Notes under the pieces: model-generated
Told to the model about the DNA's origin: nothing
Databases searched by the model: none
Seen by the model: the letters and a program-made list of their open reading frames with translations, nothing else
Source of the DNA: Pseudomonadales bacterium
GTDB taxonomy: Bacteria > Pseudomonadota > Gammaproteobacteria > Pseudomonadales > DT-91
Assembly (NCBI GenBank): GCA_013215055.1
Contig: JABSRQ010000019.1
Coordinates: 1 to 64,000, forward strand
Direction: 5' to 3'
DNA length: 64,000 bases
Program-made: the position numbers and the translations under genes
Shown here: piece after piece, positions 2,465-16,868 of the stretch
How the letters are laid out: every line of letters begins with the position of its first letter
Numbering within the stretch: the stretch's first letter is position 1

Positions 2465-3436
2465 ATGGCTGAGTTAAGGCTGCAACAACAGTTTGTAGAA
2501 ACGTGTATCACAATGCATTATGCGTATAAAACGCAGAAGTCTTATTGGTATTGGATCAGGCGTTTTATCCTCTTCCACGACATACGCCACCCAGATACGC
2601 TGCATGAACAAGACGTGGCCCGCTTCTTAACTTATTTGGCTGTTGATCAGCATGTAGCGCCAAGTACACAATCCAACGCGTTAAATTCTATTAACTTCCT
2701 CTATAAAAATGTCCTGCATAAACCATTGGGCGTTATTCCCAATTTTAGATATGCGGTGCCGAAAAAACGCTTGCCGATGGTTCTACGACGTGAAGAAGTT
2801 TCGGCTATATTGGCAGTTATGCCGCCAAAATTCAGGTTTATGGCGGCATTGATGTATGCCAGTGGCATGCGTGTATCTGAATGTATACGTTTGCGTATCA
2901 AAGATCTGGATATTGATAAACTCGCGCTAATTATTATTGATGGCAAAGGCAATATTGATAGGCAAACCGTATTCTCTCCAGATCTAGTTGAAGCACTGGA
3001 AAAGCGCATAGAACAGAGAGAGCTATTGCATCAGCTGGATTTATCAGCAGGTCAGGGTTCGGTATATTTACCGTATGCGTTAAAAAAGAAGTACCCCAAA
3101 TTCGTTACCAGTTTCCAATGGCAGTTTCTCTTTGCATCAAGCAACTACTCAAAGGATCCACGTAACAACGATTGGCATAGACACCATATCGTTGATCGAT
3201 GTTTGCAACGGGCAATCACACAGGCAGGCGTTCATGCGCGATTAAAAAAACATATTACCAGTCATGTGCTCAGGCATAGTTTTGCCACACATATGCTGGA
3301 AGATGGTAAGGGCATTCATCAGGTTCAAAAACTACTTGGGCATAAGGATCCTAAGACAACGATGATCTATTTACATGTTATGGAACGTAATGGCCATGCG
3401 ATTAGCTCGCCATTAAAATATTATACGGATGATTAG
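2465..3436 (+). CDS. intI: integron integrase (tyrosine recombinase)
   Basis: This 323-residue enzyme recombines attC with attI to capture and shuffle cassettes. The N-terminal SAM-like core-binding domain covers about residues 5-90 and the catalytic domain about 105-312. The catalytic residues are visible: R136 (ASGMRVSE), K161, H267-x-x-R270 (SHVLRHSFATH), H293 (LLGHKD) and Y302 (MIYLHV). An insertion around residues 198-223 (VYLPYALKKKYP...WQFLF) is the additional segment that distinguishes IntI from XerC/XerD and other recombinases. Length is close to the family norm, and the frame is intact. Cassette genes lie on the opposite strand beyond attI, the classical geometry. The stop codon abuts an IS remnant. 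Confidence 0.95.
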   Translation: MAELRLQQQFVETCITMHYAYKTQKSYWYWIRRFILFHDIRHPDTLHEQDVARFLTYLAVDQHVAPSTQSNALNSINFLYKNVLHKPLGVIPNFRYAVPKKRLPMVLRREEVSAILAVMPPKFRFMAALMYASGMRVSECIRLRIKDLDIDKLALIIIDGKGNIDRQTVFSPDLVEALEKRIEQRELLHQLDLSAGQGSVYLPYALKKKYPKFVTSFQWQFLFASSNYSKDPRNNDWHRHHIVDRCLQRAITQAGVHARLKKHITSHVLRHSFATHMLEDGKGIHQVQKLLGHKDPKTTMIYLHVMERNGHAISSPLKYYTDD

Positions 3437-3872: not shown

Positions 3873-4433
3873 TTAAAAATCAGGGTTAACGCGCACCAAA
3901 CGCACCGGGTAAGCCGAATTTTTAGACGCATCAAAGACCATTCCAATGGAAAAATCTACGATCCAGGCAGTGTTAACTTGAAAAGGTGAGGAAGTCCAGG
4001 TCTCGCTAGACACAGTCGTAGGGAAAAACTTGTCATTTATGGCAGGTGTATGACAAGCACCTTCCACCAAAGATTCAAGCTCTTTGATATTAGGCAGATG
4101 CCAGTTTGTATAAACAAATTCATTGGCATTAACGCCAGTAATCGCTGCATGCCAAGTAAATGTGCTGGTGCCTGAATCGGTACACGAATCATCTGCAGGG
4201 CTATCGGCATTGCTTCCTGTATCCCAGGTATAACCCAAGGCGCACTTCTGCCACATCAGCCCCGTTTGAGTATCTGTCACCGTACCGTCTTTATGATCGG
4301 TATAGATGCTGTCTGGTTTAACCAGCAAAACTAAATTATTGCAGTTTGCCAATACTGATGGGCTTAATACTGCCACAGTAAGTAACGTTGCCATCGTCTT
4401 ATTTAGTTGCATGGAAAGACTCCTATTTTTCAT
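3873..4433 (-). CDS. exported DUF1566 (Lcl C-terminal-like) protein
   Basis: The 186-residue protein has an N-terminal signal peptide (residues about 8-29, cleavage after VLA). One DUF1566 domain follows: GTVTDTQTGLMWQK at about residues 49-62, TNWHLPNIKELESLV, and a C-terminal WTSSPF...WIVDF...YPVRLVR block. DUF1566 domains occur in many exported proteins of proteobacteria and their biochemical role is not settled. The gene is last in a leftward operon, 51 bp after another DUF1566 gene, and an AGGAG ribosome site precedes the ATG. Start at 4433 is therefore preferred over the internal ATG. Confidence 0.85.
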   Translation of the reverse strand: MKNRSLSMQLNKTMATLLTVAVLSPSVLANCNNLVLLVKPDSIYTDHKDGTVTDTQTGLMWQKCALGYTWDTGSNADSPADDSCTDSGTSTFTWHAAITGVNANEFVYTNWHLPNIKELESLVEGACHTPAINDKFFPTTVSSETWTSSPFQVNTAWIVDFSIGMVFDASKNSAYPVRLVRVNPDF

Positions 4434-4484: not shown

Positions 4485-5327
4485 TTATGGGTTACGTACC
4501 AAACGAGCTTTTCGTGCACTGGCTTTTGAAGAAGGCTCCTCGACATAACCATAGGTGAAATCAACAGCCCAGGCTTTTTCACTTTCACCCGCACTGGGCG
4601 ACATTGACCAAAAATCGCCGGCTTCGGTATTAGCAAAGTAATCAACATCAATGGCTGGGCTAAAGCGGCTATAATTAATTAACGAGAGCAGTTCATTTTT
4701 GCTAGGCAATCGCCAATCGTTTTCACCACAGAGCCCTTGTACATTCACATCGGCTACAAATGTATCGGTATCACAAGCAGTGCCACCCGAGCAACTCCCC
4801 CCGTTCGAGGTTCCCGCTAAACCGCCGTTGTTAGCACTTGAGTAGCTATACCATGTATAGGTATGGTTTTTATTATGCAGACCAGACCCGGTTTTTACTT
4901 CCCAGATCAGGCCTGTCACATTATCTTTTACACATGACCAGCTACCGGCAGATGCGGCTAAATCGTTACCGCTGGCATCTAATTTGGTAAAACTGAAGCC
5001 CGCATGACCATCTGCATTATCATTGTGAGTGACATCACGCCCTTTATTGCCATCCTGCTCGGCAGGTACGGAATCACCATCGCCATCTCCATCCACGCCG
5101 CCGGCCAAACTACAGTCCACAGCATTATCATGTTCATTTGATGCACCGTAGGCGTAATCCCCACACAAAGTAATGCCGGTATCATTTAATGGAAGGGAAG
5201 CTTCGCTCTTGGTGGGTGTAGTAGAGCTGCCGCCTGCACCAGACGCTGGCACAGATCCTATACATCCGGCCAGAACTGCGGCACTGATAACCGTACCTGC
5301 AGCAATTAAAGGGAGATTTTTTTTCAT
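4485..5327 (-). CDS. DUF1566 lipoprotein
   Basis: The 280-residue protein begins with a lipoprotein signal ending in LAGC (Cys at residue 22), so it should be lipid-anchored. A low-complexity Gly/Ser and Asp/Gly-rich linker (about 25-105, including DGDGDGDS) precedes a DUF1566 domain: DNVTGLIWEVK, GENDWRLPSKNELLSLI, FWSMSPSAGESEKAWAVDF and a terminal KARLVR. The same domain occurs in the next gene, only 51 bp downstream, so the two are probably diverged duplicates. Position between the giant surface protein and that gene suggests a shared cell-envelope role. Confidence 0.85.
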   Translation of the reverse strand: MKKNLPLIAAGTVISAAVLAGCIGSVPASGAGGSSTTPTKSEASLPLNDTGITLCGDYAYGASNEHDNAVDCSLAGGVDGDGDGDSVPAEQDGNKGRDVTHNDNADGHAGFSFTKLDASGNDLAASAGSWSCVKDNVTGLIWEVKTGSGLHNKNHTYTWYSYSSANNGGLAGTSNGGSCSGGTACDTDTFVADVNVQGLCGENDWRLPSKNELLSLINYSRFSPAIDVDYFANTEAGDFWSMSPSAGESEKAWAVDFTYGYVEEPSSKASARKARLVRNP

Positions 5328-5415: not shown

Positions 5416-8400
5416 TTATTCACTGAGCAGCAATAATTCTACCCTGCGATTTTTAGCACGCCCGTCTTTGGTCTTATTACTGGCAACAGGTTTTGTTTCA
5501 CCCATAGCTTGCACTTGCAACTGCTGAGCTAACACACCTTCTGCTATCAACACCTCAACCACGGCTTTAACCCGATGCTCAGATAAGCGCTGATTATCTT
5601 TTTTCCTGCCCACATTGTCGGTATGTGCGGAGATTAAGAATCTGCTGGAAGGTTTGATTTTTAATACCGCGGCTAATTCCACAAGCTGCTGCAAAAATGT
5701 ATCACTTAGCTCAAAGCCTTTACTGGGAAAGGTAATATCGTAGTACTGATCTTTAAAAACCGCGCAAGCAGGAATAACAGGTTCACCCTGGTCATTGAGT
5801 TTTATACAGTCAATTTCTTCGGGAGCTATGGTTGCGATGACTGTTTCTGAAATAGCATCTTCTACGACAGGATCTTCTACGATAGTTTTTTCGGCAATAG
5901 GCTCTTCTACAACAGGGTCTAACACCTCAACTTCTAATGTTACGGTTTTTTTCTTAGCACCAAAGAATCGTGAAATCGATAAACCCACATAACGTGCGTC
6001 TTGGCTATAGACATCAACATAGGCTCTGGCGAACCACCGCTCGGTTACGCGGTATTCTGCCCCGGCGCCAAAAGCCAACTGCATATTACTGCCAGTATCC
6101 GAGCTAATGAGATCATTACTCACACGGCTATTAACGCCAGCAAGGCCCGATTTCACAAAAACATTCCATTGATTATTTTGATTAAAAAAATAATAACCCA
6201 CCATCAACGATGGCACCGTATATTGAATATTTTCAGAACCACTGCCTAATAAGGGGTTTTTATTATGGATGCTGGCCTGGCCTAAATCAGCATATTGAAA
6301 CTCTGCAAACCAGTGCGGAAAAAAGCGGTAGCCTACATGTATTTGCAAGCTGATATCACTGTGGTCATCCACCAACCATGAGGATGAACTTTTGGCTTCT
6401 GGGTCCAGCACCGATAGGCCCATGCCGGCACCCACATACCAACAGGAGGGAAAACTAAAACGTTTATTGGCATCACAGACTGAAGCTTCATCACCGGCCG
6501 TCACACTGGTCGCCATCAAAGCAGTGCAGAAAAACATACAAGGTCTGAACGCCCTGCCACGCAGTAATCCTGCCAATATTAAAAAGAACATCACTATCGA
6601 CGTGCTGCCGCCGGCACCGTTATGAATAGAGGTTTCAAAACCACCATCACGCTGCAGATGATCTGAAATACCATCACCGCTATAATCTGCAAACTCCAGG
6701 CCATCGACAATGCCATCATTATCACTGTCACTATCTTGATGATTCCAAATACCATCGCCATCGGCATCAAAAATTTGCACCCGCGCGTCATCAACACCAT
6801 CATGGTCCACATCAAAACGCCCCTCATCAACCACACCATCACCGTCGACATCCGCATCTAACGCATCATCAATACCGTCTTTATCCGTATCCCTATGTAG
6901 CAATGCCACAGAGGAAACTTCATGCAGATCACTGACGCCATCCGCATCGCTATCGCTATCTAAATAATCAGGAATGCCGTCACCATCGGTATCCACAGGG
7001 TTGAAATCATCATCGATACCATCCTTATTAGCATCCAGACCACCGGTAAAAATAGCTTCTATTGCATCGTCAATGCCATTTTGATTAACATCAACACCAC
7101 TATAGGGATAACCGCCCATTTCCATCGCATCTTTAATGCCATCATTATCACTGTCACTATCGAGTTGATCGGGAACACCATCACCGTCGCTATCTATCAT
7201 GCCTTCAATCAAATCACTGATACCGTCGTTATCATCATCCCCATCATAGATATCATAAATACCATCGTTATCGGTATCCAACGGCAAAGGGTCGGATACC
7301 ACATCGATATAATCAGCCAACCCGTCAAAATCACTGTCCAGCGGCTCAGGTGTTAGGGCGCCCTGGTTATAAATGCCGTCGGCTTCAAATTCATCCAACA
7401 GGCCATCGGCATCGGAATCATCATCCATATAATCGGGAATATTATCGCCATCGGTATCTCTGGGTTTTGAGCTATCGGGGCCTAACTCTTCCTTATCCGA
7501 TAAACCATCCAAATCGGAATCGCCTGAGCCATCTTCGGTGCCCGCCGTATTTTCACTATCGGCATCTTTAAAGTCAGGAATAAAATCTGCGTCATGGTCA
7601 TCATTGAAAGGCTGCTGATTATCACTAATTTCATCCACATCCGATAAGCCATCATTATCATCATCTAAATCGGCATAATCGGGAATGCCATCACCGTCCG
7701 TATCCATCAAAGCATTACGTTCTTTATTATCTGTTATGGCGTTATTGTCACTGTCGACATCACTGTGATTGGGTACGCCATCCAGATCGGCATCCTCACA
7801 GGGGTTGGCTTGACGACACTCGATTTTATCAGCAATGCCATCACCGTCAGAATCCCCGCCAGCCGCAAACTCTACGCCAGCAAGTGCTTGCAATCTATCA
7901 CTGATGCCATCGGCAGGTTCAATATCAAAATTTTCATCGGCGTCTAACAGACCATCACCATCTGAATCCATATCGAGGTAATCCGGTATGCCATCGGCAT
8001 CGGTATCTAATGGGTGCAAAGCATCCAGGCCTACTTCAATACGTGTAGTAATACCATCGCCATCATCATCGTCATCCAAGGCATCGATACCTGCAGTATT
8101 GTCGTTATTTCTAGGGGCTGAAATAACAGGACCCACTTCAACAGCATCGTTAATGCCATCATCATCAGAATCGACATTTAAAGGATTTGTACCCAGTATC
8201 TGTTCTTCGGCATTGCTGAGACCATCCCCGTCGCTGTCATTATGCATATCATTATCAGCCGCATCGAACTGGTCGTTAACGCCGTCTCCATCGGCATCTA
8301 CAAGCAGCGATTCATGTTTATCCAGCTTGCCATCACCATCGCTATCGATATCACCTTCAATCACATTGGCTAAATTATCGTCATCACTGTCACAGACCAT

Positions 8401-11400
8401 CACCCATTCATCGGGAATACAGGGATCTTCAGGCGCTGGGTCTACAAAGTCTCTGAAGCCATCCATATCGGTATCGATAATGTCAGATAAAATAGTGATA
8501 CTGAACGTGGCCACCTGAGGGTCATTGATCACAAAATTGGATCTTGCATACACCGTGACAGTGACTGGGCCATCATTTGCATTTAATAAACCCGCAGCAG
8601 AGCGGGTAATTCTGCCGCTATCGGTATGAATCGTGAAAAAATCATTGGCGGTGACTTCCGCCGGCAGCGTGTATTTCACCGCATCACCATCGGCATCCAT
8701 CGCGTTGGCGGTAATGCCGGTATAAGATGTCACGATGGCATATTCTACCAGCTGATTAACGCTGCCATCCATATCCTGGATCGCCGCCAAGGCATTATCA
8801 TCCACATTCTGGATGGTAATTGTGATAGGCACCACGGCGGTATTCTTGTTTGCATCCGTGACGCGCAGGCTCACGTTATAGCTATTCTCGCTGTTGACAT
8901 CGACAGGTGTTTCATAATCCTGCGCCGCCAAGCTTATTTGCCCCTGTGGTGTAATTAAGAATAAGGCCTGATCCTCGCCCTCTTTTGACCAGATCAACTC
9001 ACCCAGATGGCCTTGCACATCAGGTATGTTAGAAAGATAGGCTGTGTTTTCATTAATTGTGTCACTGCTGATATTAGAGATCTGCAGCTGAGAAATCTCA
9101 TCGACGTTAAGAATGTTAATCACTATTTCAAGCACGGCGGTATTGCCTTCAACATCCGTTGCACGTAAACCCAGCTCATAGCCATTATCGTGGCCATCAT
9201 CCAGTGGGGATTCAAAGTTTTGTTCAGGCAAACTGAATTGGCCGTTATGCTCGATAACCAACAAGGGGGCATCAACACCCTCTATAGCCCACGTGACCAA
9301 ACCAATATTGCCGGCGATATGTGGTGCTGTTGAAGTAAACACCGTATTTTCATTAACGTTGGATACACCAGGCATATTACTGATAATCAGCGTCGCTGTT
9401 TCAAGCTTATTTTTAACAGTGACTGTAAACGCTTTAATCGCGGTATTTTCATCGGCATCCGTCGCCCGCAAAATAATGTTATAGCGATTATCGCTATTGG
9501 CATCCTTGGCCGCTTCAAAGTTTTGTGCCGCCAACTGCAGCACGCCACGATCACTTACCGAAAACAACGCAGCATCGGCGCCCTCTACTGTCCAGTTAAT
9601 GGCTCCGACATTACCCGCAACATCTGGGGTTGTAGAGTTATAAACTTCATTTTCATAGACACTGGCATCATCGATATTACTGATCAGCAGTGTCGAGACT
9701 TCACGTTTATCTATCACACTGACGGAGATATTTTTCACTGCCGTATTGCCATCGGCATCCGTAACACGCAAAGACATAGTATAAATATTGTCCCTGGATT
9801 TATCCTCGGGGGATTCGAAGTTTTTCTCAGCCAGGCTCAGAACACCCGTGGTGCTTAGCAAAAACAAAGCCGCATCTGTACCTTCTTTAGCCCAGATAAC
9901 ATCACCAATATGTCCTGCCACACTAGGCGTATTTGAGGTATAGACAGTATTTTCATCAACGCTGGCATCACCGATATTACTAATGCTCAAGATTGAGCTT
10001 TCAGTGACATCTTTAACCTTAATGTCTAGGGCTTTAACAGCTGTATTGGCATCGGCATCGGTTACACGCAAGCTGATGTGATAAATATTATCGAGGTTGG
10101 CATCCTGCGGGGATTCAAAGTTTTTTGCAGCTAAGGTCAAAACACCATTATCCAGAAGGGTAAACAAAGCGGCATCAATGCCTTCTTTTTCCCAGGTTAC
10201 GGCCCCGATATTGCCTTCAACCCTAGGCAGTAATGAGCTATAAAATTCGTTTTCATTGATCTGGGCATCAATGACATTGTTGATCACCAGTTCCGATATT
10301 TCTTGCATATCCAATACGGTTATCACGATCTGTTTAAGCGCCGTATTACCGTCTGCATCCGTCGCTCTTACGTCAACGTTATAATGATTATCGTTAGAAG
10401 CATCATTTGGCGCTTCAAAATTCTGAGCAGCTAAACTCAATACACCTTCAGCATTGATGGAAAACAGCAACGCATCATCCCCCTCCTTGCTCCATATCAC
10501 CGCACCAATATTGCCTTCTAGAACGGGAGTAGTGGAGGTATAGGCCTCATTTTCATTAAAATTAACACTAGATAGATTACTGATTATCATTGTCGATATC
10601 TCCGAGATATCGGCAACACTGATACTTAAAGTAATGGTTGCTGTGTTGGCATCGGCATCTGTGGCCCGCAAACTGACGCTATAAAAATTATCTTTATTAG
10701 CATCTATGGGCGATTCAAAATTTTGCGCAGCTAAACTCAGCAGACCTTTGTCGGTGATGGAAAACAATGCAGCATCATCACCTTCTTTGGCCCAGCTCAC
10801 GACACCCATATTGCCAGCTATGCTGGGTATTGCAGAGCTATACACACTATTTTCATTAATCTCACTATTGTTGATATTACCTATCACCAGCGTCGACACT
10901 TCACGGATATTTAAAACCCTAATACTTAGATGGGCTACTGCTGTGTTGTCGTCCGCATCCGTTGCCCGCAAGCTAACGCTATAGCTATTATCCTTATTGG
11001 CATCCAAAGGAGATTCGAAGTTTTGTTCAGCTAACGAGAGCACACCGTTCGAGCTGATTGAAAACAATGTCGCATCGTCACCTTCTTTAGACCAGATCAC
11101 AGCACCCATATTGCCAACGATGCTTGGTATTGCAGAGGTATAGGCTGTATTTTCCGGGGTATCGGCGTTACTGATATTAGCGATGTTTAGCACTGAGACT
11201 TCTGTCATATCAAGCACGGTAATCACGATCTGTTTAAGCACTGTATTACCGTCTGCATCCGTAGCCCTTAAGCCAACGTTATAACGATTATTCACAGAGG
11301 CATCATTTGGCGCTTCAAAATTCTGAGCAGATAAGCTCAATACACCCTCAGCATTTATTGAAAACAGCGCCGCATCGTCACCTTCTTTAGTCCAGGTCAC

Positions 11401-14400
11401 GACACCAATATTGCCCTCAATGCTCGGCATGGTAGAGCTATAGGCACTATTTTCGCTAATATCGCTATCGCGGAGATTAGCGATCGTCAGTGTTGCGGTT
11501 TCAATCACATCGTTAACGCTAATTTCTAACATGATATCTGTGAAATTTTCATCCGCATCCGTGGCTGTTAATGTCACGTCATAACGGTTATCACGGTCGT
11601 CATCTTGTGGCTCTTCAAAATCCTTAGCCGTTAGTGTTAATACCCCATATTGATCCATTGAAAATAAAGCGGCATCAACCCCACGTTTACTCCACACAAT
11701 GGAGCCAATATTGCCACTCACTAAAGGTGTAGCTGAAATAAAGACCTGATTTTCATCAATGCTTGAATGATTGATATGACTAATACTGAGAATGGCCGAT
11801 TCATTGATATCGACGACAGTTATCTGTAAAGATACTGCCGCCGTATTATCATCCGCATCGGTTACACGTAGTGTGACGTTGTAGTGATTATCCAAACCCG
11901 CATCTTTAGCGGCCTCAAAATTTTGTGCTGCCAGGGTTAATTGACCATTTTCAGATAACACAAACAATGCAGCATCGGCACCTTCTTTGCTCCAGGAAGC
12001 TGCGCCTATATTGCCTGTAATGGAGGGTATATTTGAGGTATAGATGCTGTTTTCATTGATGCTGCCACTGCCCATATTGCTAATGACGATGGTTGATGTT
12101 TCGTCAACATCCTCAACATTAACACGGATATTTTGGCTAGTTGTATAACCACCATCGGAGACCTCAACGTTAACGTCATATTGATTATCCCCAGCGCCCT
12201 CAAAATCGGCGGCTATTTTAAAAGCCAATACACCTGTTTTGGCATCCAGTTCAAACAAGTCTTTATCGACACCTGAAATAATTCGGTAGCTTAAAGCATT
12301 AAGATTATCTAAATCTGTAGCATCCAGTGTGGTTACGGTTCTATTGCCTTCTTCAACGTCAATACTGATAGCATCACCCGCCAAAAAAACAGGTGCGTTA
12401 TCGTTAACATTATTCAACTCTATCGTGATGGTGCTGTCCGCCCCTACATATAAACCATCATCGACACCAATAGACAGATTAAACGTTGCAGTGCCTTCAT
12501 CAAAATCCAAATTTGCACCAGCGGCTACACGAATAATGCCCGTATTAGCATCAATAGAAAATTGGCCTTCTTCATTACCAGCCGCAAAACTGTAGCGAAT
12601 AACATCGCCATCTAAGTCGACATCGGTACCGGTATCTGCATCGTTAATATCGAGAATAAGGCTATCTACGCCAATGTTTTCGTAAATAGGCACCGTTTGA
12701 TTAAACAGCCTAGGTATTTTGTTAGGCCCTATTAATGTATATAGGGAATAGCTGTAACTGAAATTATCTAAGGTATCTTTATACGTGCCTTTTAATCGAA
12801 CCCAATCACCGATAGTTAATGATGAGACCGTATAGTTAACGTCGTTTTCAGCATCAATATTTTGCCATATTGCACCTTCATCTTCGGATTTTTGCCATTG
12901 GTATTGCGTTGTTTCGGCATTGGCTGACAGGGTATCCTTGCTTAAAAATAACCGTGATTGCTCATGCGCAAAACGTAAGTTAATTTCAATACGTCGAATA
13001 ACAACATTAACCTTGGAAATAATATTCTTATTTTGATCAAAGATAGAAAAGACATAGGCATCACGTAAGGTAAAATCAATGACTGCGTCGCTGAGTAAAT
13101 TACCCGCTCGTGACAGCTTAAATAAGACCCCATCTTCACCGCCTAAAATCTTCCATTTTAGGATATATTCGTTGGATGAAAATAATGGACCTAATGCCGT
13201 ATCAGGCGCCAGATTTCCATCCACATAAAAAAATTGTTCGTCAATAACGGGGCTATCGGATTTGCCCAGGGCAAGCACATAGTCCTCTACCTCGCCATTA
13301 AGCACCAGCCCTTGGGCTGAAGCCGCATACAGGGTTTTATCACTGCTCAGACGAAAACGCACATAAACAGGATAGCCTTCAAAAAGCTCCGATAAACCGG
13401 GAGTACTGGACCACACAAGATCATCCGCAGGAGAGGCTTGATACAAGCCACTGACTACCGGAATCGCTGAGTATTCGTCTCTATCAAATTGGCCATTACC
13501 ATCAAAATCAATCCAGGCATGTAACGTCGCCGACTCGCCTAAGGTATTGGTTACGATAATATTGGCTGCAGGTATACGATATTGGCCGTCGGTAATACTC
13601 AATGGCAATAACGTGATACCGTCTTCATCATCACTGCCGATGATTGTTTCATCATCGGAATTGGCGCCTCCACCGGGAATACCGCCAGCTTCACCATCAA
13701 CACCCAGCCCCAGGTAGATTTTTTCAGCGGCGCCTATCACCCCGTCAAAATCATAATCGGCCTGTAAATGCCATGCACTCTTGTCTGTACCTGAGATCGT
13801 TCCAAAAGATTCGGGCGCATCACCAAAATCGGTATTTAAGGTTAAAAAAGCATGAATGCCTAGGTGAACAATACCATCGCCGCCAGGTTCACTGGGCACG
13901 GTATCAAAATTCATGCCTGCCCTACCGCCTTTAGCCGAGACGGAATACAAGGCCGCGATGTTAGATACAACATAACCGCCACCGCCGCCACCGCCACCAC
14001 CATGCTCAAAATCGGCCTGCCCACCGCGGCCGCCATCGGCTTTGATGCTTAAATTTTCAAGCTGAGTATTGACTACATCCGCAAAAAACAACACCACCGT
14101 ACCGGCTGCACCGCCGCCGCCTGCACCGTCATTTTCATAATGCCACTGAAACCAGGAATAATACGGGCCAACATCCGCTGTGCGGCCTATACTGCCTCGC
14201 ACATCGATGGAAGACGTATTATCGGCATGGGCAGATTTGGCGTAGATAAAAACAATGCCGCCACCGATGCCGCCATTATTTTTTGAATTATTATTGGCTT
14301 CTCCTGCACCGCCGCCGCCACCTAAATTCAGGCCGGCGAGTATCGACTGCCCACCATAACCGGCATAATTAGTCTCGGTAGCTTGCCAGCCTCTGGCACC

Positions 14401-15390
14401 TGTGCCTCCACGTCCGGCATTGGAGCCACCCCCGCCTCCGGCATTATGAGGACCGGCACCACCACCGGCATTACCTGGTGCACCACGGCCAAAATCGCCT
14501 GCGGCTAACGTCCCTGCAGCCACTATCGTGTTAAATTCCGAGGATAATTGTGCAGGATAAACACCGTCCTGCGGTGTATTAATATCTCCTGGGTAATCAA
14601 ACAGCGCATCACCATCCGCAGTATCAATACTTAATGAGGCCACTTGTGCCGGTGTACCGGCTATGCCTTCACCTTTGCCTCCAACATCGGCGGCTGAAAC
14701 AGCAACTTCGGCCTGATTATCGGTGGTCTGGGTTCTGTCAATTTCTACGCCGCCACGAAATCCTCTTGCGGCAGCAGTAATGGTATAAGTATTAAAATTA
14801 ATATGGGCATCGGGCGCGTTAAGAACCACAACACCACCGCTATCACCATCCCAGGATTCGGCCGTAACACCCCCTACAAGATTGATCTCATCAACCCCTG
14901 TATACGGTACGATAATAATCTGCCAGTTCGCCTCAGCCGTATCAAGATAGGCATGTTTCAGCATTTGAGTCAGGGTAATTTCAGAACCGTTTACACTTTC
15001 AACATGTACAAATTCAAACGTCCCGGCCGATTGGCTGATTAAACCACCCGCATAATTTTTTGTACCATGTAACGATGTAGCGATACTGGTCATGGTGGTG
15101 CCATCACCTACACCATCGCCGTAGAGGTTATTATTCTCAGTATTGATGGCTGCACCTTGAGATTGCAATAATAGCAATACATCACCGGCTTCAATCTGGG
15201 TTTCTGCCCCTCTGAAGTCACCTGAATACTGAATAACAGTGGCTCCCTCCAGCACATCACCCAGGCCTTTAACGTAGCTATTTACTACACCTGAAATATG
15301 CACAGCCGTGTCTGCCGTTAATGTGGGCAAAGAAAAAAGAGCAAAAAATAGTATAAAAACTACGCTACGCAGTTTTAAAAAGTTAGACAT
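5416..15390 (-). CDS. giant multidomain surface protein with C-terminal OmpA
   Basis: This 3324-residue protein is exported (signal peptide about 1-26, cleavage near TLTA). In order it carries an N-terminal region with a glycine-rich stretch (about 290-490), a GEVED-type domain (about 520-710, starting [10 protein letters not shown] and ending GEVEDYVL), two ordinary cadherin-like domains (about 900-1090), eleven 100-residue cadherin-like repeats (about 1100-2190), one more cadherin-like unit, and a long series of thrombospondin type 3 calcium-binding motifs such as DSDGDGIPD (about 2290-2910). At 2925-2945 there is a Gly-Gly, hydrophobic, Arg pattern like a GlyGly-CTERM sorting signal. It is followed without a stop by an OmpA-like barrel (about 2965-3150), an acidic Pro/Val/Glu linker and an OmpA peptidoglycan-binding domain (about 3210-3324, with HTDNVG and LSEHRVKAV). 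It probably acts as a calcium-dependent adhesin or biofilm protein at the outer membrane. Confidence 0.9.
6640..8500 (-). repeat. thrombospondin type 3 (calcium-binding) repeat coding region
   Basis: About 620 codons are dominated by DxDxDGxxD motifs (for example [19 protein letters not shown] and DSDNDGI). On the plus strand this shows as endless CCATCACCATC and ATCGGTATC variants. Such motifs bind calcium and make a stiff rod in known thrombospondins. The codon-level repetition makes this stretch prone to misassembly or copy change. Confidence 0.88.
8800..12100 (-). repeat. eleven tandem 300-bp cadherin-like repeat units
   Basis: A TTTTCAT-type element (encoding NEN) recurs at 9047, 9347, 9650, 9950, 10250, 10550, 10850, 11150, 11450, 11750 and 12049. 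The period is exactly 300 bp except for one 303-bp step. Each unit encodes NEN-x-YTS...GNIG-x-V-x-W-x-KEG-x-D-x-ALF...LAAQNFE...[10 protein letters not shown]. The uniform period and high similarity indicate expansion by recombination of one unit. Confidence 0.92.
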
Positions 15391-15755
15391 AACAAACCTA
15401 GAAATTGATAAGTCGGCTGTACATTTTATTATTATTAAATCACTGCATTATTGAATATAAGCCGTTTAAACCACCTCTTCCGTCGAGTGATTTGCAAATA
15501 TCCGTGAGCATAGAATTCGGCCTAGCCCGGCTTTAAAGATTCAGGCGGATAAAAGGCATTTCGAGCTGTTCTATCAGGCTTTTTTGTCTTATTTTTGTAT
15601 CGCCATAACTAAAGTTGAACCTGTTCACATAATGCCTTGCGACTGATATCGACAACAGGTTATATTTGGACAATACCTATGGTCATTTGCGGACACCTCA
15701 CAGCAATAAAGACAGTTCTCACTGACCATAAGACTAAAAACTATTGAGGCAAACA
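15391..15755. other. divergent intergenic region, surface operon / AraC regulator
   Basis: These 365 bp separate the leftward giant gene from the rightward AraC-type gene, so they should hold both promoters. I see no confident operator or terminator. A GAGG ribosome site lies six bases before the AraC ATG at 15756. Confidence 0.4.
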
Positions 15756-16868
15756 ATGGTCACAAACGGTTCAGAACAACAACGTTGGTTAGACAAGACC
15801 CGTGAAACTTTGTTGTCCAGCAGCCAAGCCGTTGAATTCCACGTATCGGTCAATTATGTGACGATTTTGATAGAGTTTTTACAGGGTGAAAATATCGATA
15901 CCACCGCGCTGTTAAAACTTGCCGCTATAGAGACCAGCCTGCTCAAAGACCCCAAGGCGTCAATCGACGGCAGTCAGTACGAAAATTTAATTCTCGCCAC
16001 GGTTAAGATCGGCGATAATCCAATACTTTGGGGCCTGGAATATGGCCGGCGCTTAACGGTATTCAGGCATGGCCTATTAGGTTATGCGATCATGAGTAGC
16101 GCCAATATAATAGATGCCCTGTCGTTGGCGGCAAAATATATTCAAGGGCGAAATTCACTGATCAGTTTCAATTTCTCGCTTATCGGCAAGACAGACGATA
16201 AGCCCGAGCGAGTGTCCATGGGGTTTGATGTAAATCTGGATAATATAGAGTCCTGCCGTTTTCAGATCGATGCTATTTTTAGTGCTTTAATTGGTGTCTG
16301 GAAAGAGATGCTGGGTAATAGTGACGGCATTGAGGCTTTTTATTGTAGCTTCCCAGAACCCAAAAATGCTGGGCTGTATAAGAAGTTTTTTGATGTACCC
16401 GTGTTGTTTGATCAGCCACGAAACTGCGTGGTGTTTGATCCTAAAGCGTTTGAAGCGATTGCGCGACAGTCAGATCCTATGCTGCACAGCATGGCCGAAC
16501 AGCAATGCAAAACCCTGCTGGAGGAAATTGACAAACAGCAACCCGAACGGGAACAAGGCCTGGAACTTGATATTCGCCAGTTACTGTTAAAGTCGCCGGG
16601 TAACTTTTTAACCCAGCACCAAGTTGCCCAAACCATGGGTATCACCGCCCGCACATTAACCCGTAGGCTGACCCGAAAAGACCTGAGTTTTAAAAATATT
16701 CTTGACGATGTACGTAAACAATTGGCCCTACAATGTTTACAAACAACCGAATGGAGTGTGGATGAGATCGCTGCGATGCTGAATTACAGTGATGCGTCTA
16801 ACTTTAGTCGGGCCGTCAAACGTTGGACCGGGAAAACGCCGGGGCAGTTTCGCCAAGACAAATCTTGA
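15756..16868 (+). CDS. AraC-family transcriptional regulator
   Basis: The protein of about 370 residues has the layout of the Arabinose_bd-type AraC subfamily: a large N-terminal sensing domain (about 20-200) and a C-terminal double helix-turn-helix (about 275-370). Visible in the latter are HQVAQTMGITARTLTRRL for the first HTH and WSVDEIAAMLNYSDASNFSRAVKRWTGKTPGQFR for the second. I prefer ATG at 15756, preceded by GAGG at six bases, to an upstream TTG in frame. It stands alone, divergent from the giant surface protein and facing the tail of the monooxygenase gene. Members of this subfamily often control lipid or hydrocarbon metabolism, but no target is shown here. Confidence 0.88.
   Translation: MVTNGSEQQRWLDKTRETLLSSSQAVEFHVSVNYVTILIEFLQGENIDTTALLKLAAIETSLLKDPKASIDGSQYENLILATVKIGDNPILWGLEYGRRLTVFRHGLLGYAIMSSANIIDALSLAAKYIQGRNSLISFNFSLIGKTDDKPERVSMGFDVNLDNIESCRFQIDAIFSALIGVWKEMLGNSDGIEAFYCSFPEPKNAGLYKKFFDVPVLFDQPRNCVVFDPKAFEAIARQSDPMLHSMAEQQCKTLLEEIDKQQPEREQGLELDIRQLLLKSPGNFLTQHQVAQTMGITARTLTRRLTRKDLSFKNILDDVRKQLALQCLQTTEWSVDEIAAMLNYSDASNFSRAVKRWTGKTPGQFRQDKS

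Follow-up and report, generated by a model that had tools for sequence, protein, structure and literature searches.

Giant proteins with an OmpA domain at their end are common in general. In the cytochrome b/c1 polyprotein FbcH of Bradyrhizobium, signal peptidase cuts at an internal signal sequence; this bacterial polyprotein carries no sorting signal and gives inner-membrane products, and serves here as a lead only. Sorting signals of the GlyGly-CTERM kind have so far been described and modelled as C-terminal. In VesB from V. cholerae, rhombosortase cuts at the GlyGly motif; the protein receives a glycerophosphoethanolamine modification and is exported through the type II secretion system (T2SS) (PMC6219818). 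An internal sorting signal has been reported for MXAN_5598 from Myxococcus xanthus, where a MYXO-CTERM segment separates the large adhesin region from the barrel/OmpA part. In the passages on this protein, Guo, Haft and Wall (2025) call it atypical and suggest a fusion of two genes with processing of the N-terminal part (PMC11980579). Other passages of the same paper describe the JDVT-CTERM system as two neighbouring genes, those of MrtJ and of a single target, and TraA/TraB of Myxococcus as a sorted surface receptor and an OmpA-type partner encoded by overlapping open reading frames (PMC11980579).

Results

We examined a giant gene in a stretch of 64,000 nucleotides (the window) from a Pseudomonadales bacterium, the genome of which is a draft of 460 contigs with 84.7% completeness. 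The open frame on the minus strand (5416..15390) codes for 3324 amino acids and, according to the open reading frame listing and a check of the sequence, contains neither an internal stop nor an N. Its parts are arranged as follows.

5416..15390, minus strand: whole open frame, giant surface protein and OmpA precursor (open reading frame listing)
15313..15390, minus strand: N-terminal Sec signal peptide, residues ~1-26 (sequence; cleavage site predicted by the AxA rule)
8476..12411, minus strand: cadherin-like repeat region, residues ~994-2305 (PF00028, E 9.9e-28; boundaries from sequence)
6652..8475, minus strand: TSP3-type Asp-rich calcium-binding-like repeats, residues ~2306-2913 (PF18884 and sequence)
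6604..6618, minus strand: internal sorting-signal motif G-A-G-G-S, residues 2925-2929, proposed rhombosortase cleavage site (sequence; invariant Gly column in homologues)
6562..6603, minus strand: TM1 of the sorting signal, residues 2930-2943 (hydropathy; AF2 helix of low confidence)
6541..6561, minus strand: basic loop RGRAFRP, predicted to be cytoplasmic, residues 2944-2950 (net charge +3; Arg nearly invariant)
6496..6540, minus strand: TM2, the putative internal signal peptide, residues 2951-2965 (hydropathy and AxA; proposed signal peptidase I cut between A2965 and G2966)
5959..6444, minus strand: OmpA-type barrel of eight strands, residues ~2983-3144 (PF01389, AF2 strands, Foldseek)
5446..5730, minus strand: OmpA C-terminal peptidoglycan-binding domain, residues 3221-3315 (PF00691, E 7.5e-18)

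Apart from the repeats, the giant protein has a glycine-rich N-terminal region with an AgmC-like match to NF047640 that stays below the model cut-off, and a GEVED domain detected by profile search. The end of the protein belongs to the OmpA family, with an eight-stranded barrel (PF01389, residues 2984-3122) and an OmpA-like C-terminal domain (PF00691), both over cut-off. An AlphaFold model of the part from the hairpin to the OmpA end, based on an alignment of 3 sequences and with a mean pLDDT of 54, shows two helices of low confidence, eight strands at pLDDT ~65-85 and an OmpA-like C-terminal fold; the top PDB matches to this model in Foldseek are E. coli OmpA (9fzc, TMt 0.79).

Several neighbouring genes were recorded as well. 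An AraC-type regulator at 15744-16868 (plus strand) diverges from the giant gene and is a candidate regulator. Two Lcl_C genes (PF07603) lie directly downstream, at 3873-4433 and 4485-5327 (both minus strand), and the one nearer to the giant gene carries a lipoprotein-like signal. An integron integrase is encoded at 2465-3436 (plus strand; TIGR02249, 381.6 bits with a cut-off of 265), and the small open reading frames at 156-2400 may represent cassettes that belong to a chromosomal integron.

In the section that separates repeats and barrel (residues 2924-2967), a GlyGly-CTERM-like tail is followed immediately by a signal-peptide-like segment. The first-pass annotation of this DNA had pointed to a Gly-Gly-Ser, hydrophobic, Arg layout around residue 2925, to a second signal-like segment right behind it and to a full OmpA thereafter. 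All three observations stand: GAGGS is followed by TM1 and RGRAFR, TM2 ends in VTA/G, and the PF01389 and PF00691 domains come next. The segment combines the GlyGly-CTERM layout of a Gly/Ser-rich motif, a hydrophobic stretch and basic residues with the layout of a signal peptidase I signal, namely a basic n-region (RGRAFRP), a hydrophobic h-region and a VTA/G site. The position is a variant one, since ~380 residues come after the Gly motif, and hmmscan of the window segment gives no match to TIGR03501. The motif contains no Cys, and the segment does not match MYXO-CTERM models either. We also trained a tail HMM on genuine C-terminal tails alone, from 10 ordinary GlyGly-CTERM proteins of the source genome and 15 upstream genes of two-gene pairs. 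With this model, the junction was the top match in 59 of 60 fused proteins, the remaining one having a JDVT-type signal; the likeness to a sorting signal thus goes beyond chance. In the window protein the junction is the sole match, but a weak one (2.0 bits).

To place this junction among relatives, we ran profile searches on 391 genomes from the order and 369 from the class and inspected the junctions found; the profiles contained the hairpin, which biases ascertainment, yet they also retrieved barrels without it. A scan of genome contigs with the window protein as the only query found no relative. Of the 61 fused frames parsed, 60 contain Gly motif, TM1, basic loop and TM2 without interruption, at identities down to ~20%; some of these 60 are closely related to each other and cannot be treated as independent. 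Their loops have net charges of +2 to +8, and 59 of the 60 contain an AxA-type site. The frames are ~600 to 4600 amino acids long; ten families within the order are represented, as are many further families in the class. An alignment of 26 fused homologues, which share 19-40% identity with the first sequence, contains one invariant Gly and one Arg that is conserved almost throughout. The single exception in parsing (L086, genome G008) has both hydrophobic segments merged into one, GGGGAAGLGSLLGLLVLCLLAVSPASKASDK; a relative from the same genus (L084) retains two separate segments. About 13 more fused junctions were found by eye in a control set of long frames, several of which had been chosen because the hairpin failed to align; another frame of this set (L176, genome G700) has the barrel without a hairpin. 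One fused junction (L180, genome G550) has an unusually long loop of ~50 residues from TM1 to the second signal. Judged from the frame table, a phylum-wide sample contained no hairpin-bearing fused frame beyond the class.

The internal sites of seven relatives exceed the TIGR03501 cut-off of 15.5 bits (L006 21.9, L082 20.9, L095 19.0, L167 18.2, L169 17.4, L112 16.4 and L187 16.2). Purifying selection keeps both TM1 and TM2: dN/dS is 0.17 for Gly motif, TM1 and Arg and 0.38 for TM2; the barrel has 0.09 and the upstream repeats have 0.11. These values are pooled from 14 pairs in which some sequences occur more than once and sites are few.

The same two halves also exist as neighbouring genes. 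The source genome contains four such pairs (L011, L017, L027 and L030), along with two fused members, the window gene and L033 on contig C456; split pairs also occur elsewhere in the order and class. In these pairs the adhesin gene ends in a Gly/TM/Arg tail and the adjoining OmpA gene has its own signal peptide; in L011 the two genes overlap by ATGA. We built a quick tree of 60 fused and 24 split barrels, many nodes of which are weak. The fused/split label changes at least 9 times on this tree, compared to a mean of 21 for shuffled labels, and at least 2 changes are forced by well-supported branches. Fusion or fission seems to be recurrent, and fused and split forms seem interchangeable.

The source genome encodes one rhombosortase over cut-off (TIGR03902, 124.9 bits, cut-off 84, contig C418) and a T2SS, recognised by the secretin GspD (TIGR02517, 563.5 bits, cut-off 351). 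It also encodes ten ordinary GlyGly-CTERM proteins, the motif of which ends 0-7 residues before the stop. Within the order, rhombosortase occurs in 25 of 26 fused genomes compared to 116 of 365 others (Fisher 3.5e-11), and the sole fused genome without it is 65% complete. Within the class, the enzyme is present in 21 of 21 fused genomes with inspected junctions (28 of 28 once calls from the frame table are added), compared to 61 of 144 genomes in which such a barrel occurs and no fused junction was recognised (9.6e-8). Shared ancestry inflates the significance of both comparisons. In two genomes, G359 (L111) and G696 (L187), a rhombosortase gene lies directly 3' of the fused adhesin-OmpA gene, which suggests a dedicated operon.

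The first-pass annotation had proposed looking for two-gene versions in relatives and for a rhombosortase gene in the genome. Both exist, and the relatives, like the source genome, carry two adjacent genes as well as the fused form. The pattern it had named as evidence against itself, many homologues of the same architecture and no rhombosortase, does not describe these genomes: homologues are many, but rhombosortase is nearly always present. Its remark that either of its explanations would be unusual does not hold, since the uninterrupted architecture is frequent across the class.

Four genomes (G464, G534, G600 and G567) have an internal signal of the JDVT-CTERM type (31.8-35.3 bits, cut-off 27). 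MrtJ exceeds its cut-off in 4 of 4 JDVT-type fused genomes, a small number, compared to 2 of the 14 fused genomes of the GlyGly type that were tested (p 0.005). In G567, MrtJ is located on a contig that begins with the remainder of the OmpA half. The gene order JDVT-CTERM adhesin, OmpA, MrtJ was observed in five genomes, G600 (contig C79, L142), G700 (C54, L137), G466 (C115, L138), G694 (C34, L139) and G572 (C37, L133).

Proposed Mechanism and Alternatives

The window frame is most probably a polyprotein (we estimate a probability of about 0.8) with two cuts, one made by rhombosortase at the Gly motif and the other by signal peptidase I behind the second signal. This was the second option of the first-pass annotation, and at the level of sequence it is well supported by the presence of rhombosortase, the conserved junction and the two-gene equivalents. 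From the layout we infer the following course of export. The N-terminal giant repeat protein would be exported by Sec until the segment of Gly motif, TM1 and Arg stops transfer; the Arg loop and TM2 would then restart it. The resulting membrane hairpin would place the adhesin in the periplasm, TM1 running out-to-in, the basic loop in the cytoplasm, TM2 running in-to-out and the OmpA half again in the periplasm. Signal peptidase I would cut between A2965 and G2966 and free the OmpA half, which may reach the outer membrane via BAM and bind peptidoglycan. Rhombosortase would cut the GAGGS motif, probably adding a lipid to the new C-terminus, and the T2SS would carry the giant adhesin to the surface. 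By analogy with the processing of VesB (PMC6219818), the adhesin half would probably be located there with a lipid anchor. The two cuts together would leave a hairpin of 30-40 residues and give the same two proteins as the adjacent genes of relatives, in a fixed 1:1 ratio. Since GlyGly-CTERM signals are defined by their C-terminal position, processing in mid-chain is an extrapolation from the known pathway.

Other explanations have to be weighed against cleavage by both enzymes. Recent loss of a stop codon or an assembly error might have joined two genes and left the stranded signals as decaying leftovers, and the two-gene versions in the source genome would fit such an origin. However, the frame contains no N, the fused form occurs in dozens of genomes from many families, some of these genomes being assembled as a single contig, and both hydrophobic segments are under purifying selection. 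The hairpin is kept between closely related genomes, which refutes decay, and the explanation as a whole is already largely refuted; recurrence of the cutting region in dozens of related bacteria marks it as a conserved design and not as a sequencing accident. We consider this origin very improbable. Gene fusion by stop loss, the other option of the first-pass annotation, therefore holds in the evolutionary sense that fused and split forms interchange on the tree, but not as a recent accident. Production of the OmpA half by internal re-initiation, or by another translational event instead of a polyprotein, is scarcely credible. The window junction does contain an in-frame ATG immediately before MFFCTAL, but this codon has no SD-like sequence, and a start there would leave no basic n-region. 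A start codon together with an SD-like sequence occurs at only 7 of the 60 junctions, that of the window not among them, which makes independent initiation unlikely.

It is also quite unlikely that the hairpin stays uncut, either as a two-helix inner-membrane anchor or within a single outer-membrane protein that holds the adhesin on an OmpA anchor, even though the frame is continuous and giant proteins ending in OmpA are generally common. Behind an uncut inner-membrane hairpin, the usual route of assembly in the outer membrane would be closed to the OmpA barrel, and since both ends of an eight-stranded barrel are periplasmic, the adhesin of an uncut single protein would be trapped. The constant Gly motif, the AxA site and the matched proteases would be left without a role. 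Moreover, signal type and matching protease change together, which is hard to explain if the site stays uncut, and the interchangeability of fused and split forms is most easily understood if either form yields two proteins. Cleavage by signal peptidase I alone, with the Gly motif and TM1 acting as a plain membrane anchor that holds the giant protein in the inner membrane or allows its release by another protease, is unlikely as well. The weak Gly motif of the window would agree with it, and GlpG from V. cholerae is also able to cut a GlyGly-CTERM substrate (PMC6219818; see also the abstract of PMC11389362). Against this explanation, a Gly is invariant at the start of TM1, the fused form tracks rhombosortase, and the swap to JDVT-CTERM is accompanied by MrtJ.

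If the frame is indeed cut by rhombosortase and signal peptidase I, it offers a natural example of a bacterial polyprotein matured by an intramembrane protease together with signal peptidase. Giant adhesins annotated as "OmpA family" would then be two proteins with different locations, and the coexistence of fused and two-gene forms inside one genome would offer natural experiments. Beyond the window, we think it likely that Gammaproteobacteria make a whole class of surface-adhesin/OmpA pairs as polyproteins with back-to-back hairpin signals in mid-chain, and that these kept their architecture when the sorting half was swapped between rhombosortase and MrtJ, two intramembrane proteases unrelated to each other.

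Comparison with Known Systems

The window protein resembles substrates of the GlyGly-CTERM/rhombosortase/T2SS pathway in its Gly motif, hydrophobic stretch and basic residues, and rhombosortase and T2SS are present in the genome. It differs in that the signal of known substrates forms their very C-terminus (VesB, PMC6219818; Haft 2011, PMC3237569), whereas the window protein continues for ~380 residues. A search of Haft 2011 (PMC3237569) for the relevant terms found no OmpA, fusion or internal-signal case. Likewise, related split and fused forms share with the JDVT-CTERM/MrtJ system a JDVT-CTERM signal over cut-off and the presence of MrtJ. Compared to the pair described in passages of PMC11980579, here an OmpA gene or a fused OmpA half often intervenes.

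The idea of an internal signal has a published precedent in MXAN_5598, as described in passages of PMC11980579. That protein has the same succession of adhesin, internal sorting signal and OmpA part as the window protein, but its signal is a Cys-based MYXO-CTERM, its protease is MrtX of the CPBP family, and it comes from another phylum. The passages on MXAN_5598 mention no internal signal peptide (PMC11980579), unlike what we find in the window protein. Moreover, the signals described here are of the GlyGly-CTERM or JDVT-CTERM type, are widespread in the class and have split relatives. Our literature search, with Haft 2024 outside its scope, retrieved no internal-signal case besides MXAN_5598, and a search for bacterial polyproteins with internal signals, including the FbcH precedent, gave nothing usable. 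The GlyGly and JDVT versions, their class-wide breadth, the internal signal peptide and the alternation between fused and split forms look new within the literature that could be searched.

For a functional link between the adhesin and OmpA halves, TraA/TraB is the best analogue. According to passages of PMC11980579, this system consists of a sorted protein and an OmpA-type partner from overlapping open reading frames, much like the split pairs here, but it is made as two proteins and uses MYXO-CTERM. The TraB model matches the window protein in the OmpA domain alone (40.3 bits, below the cut-off of 700). In three sorting systems, those of rhombosortase and MrtJ in the genomes analysed here and that of myxosortase in the passages of PMC11980579, fused and split pairs tie a sorted surface protein to an OmpA partner of its own, so that the role of the OmpA partner for the sorted adhesin becomes testable.
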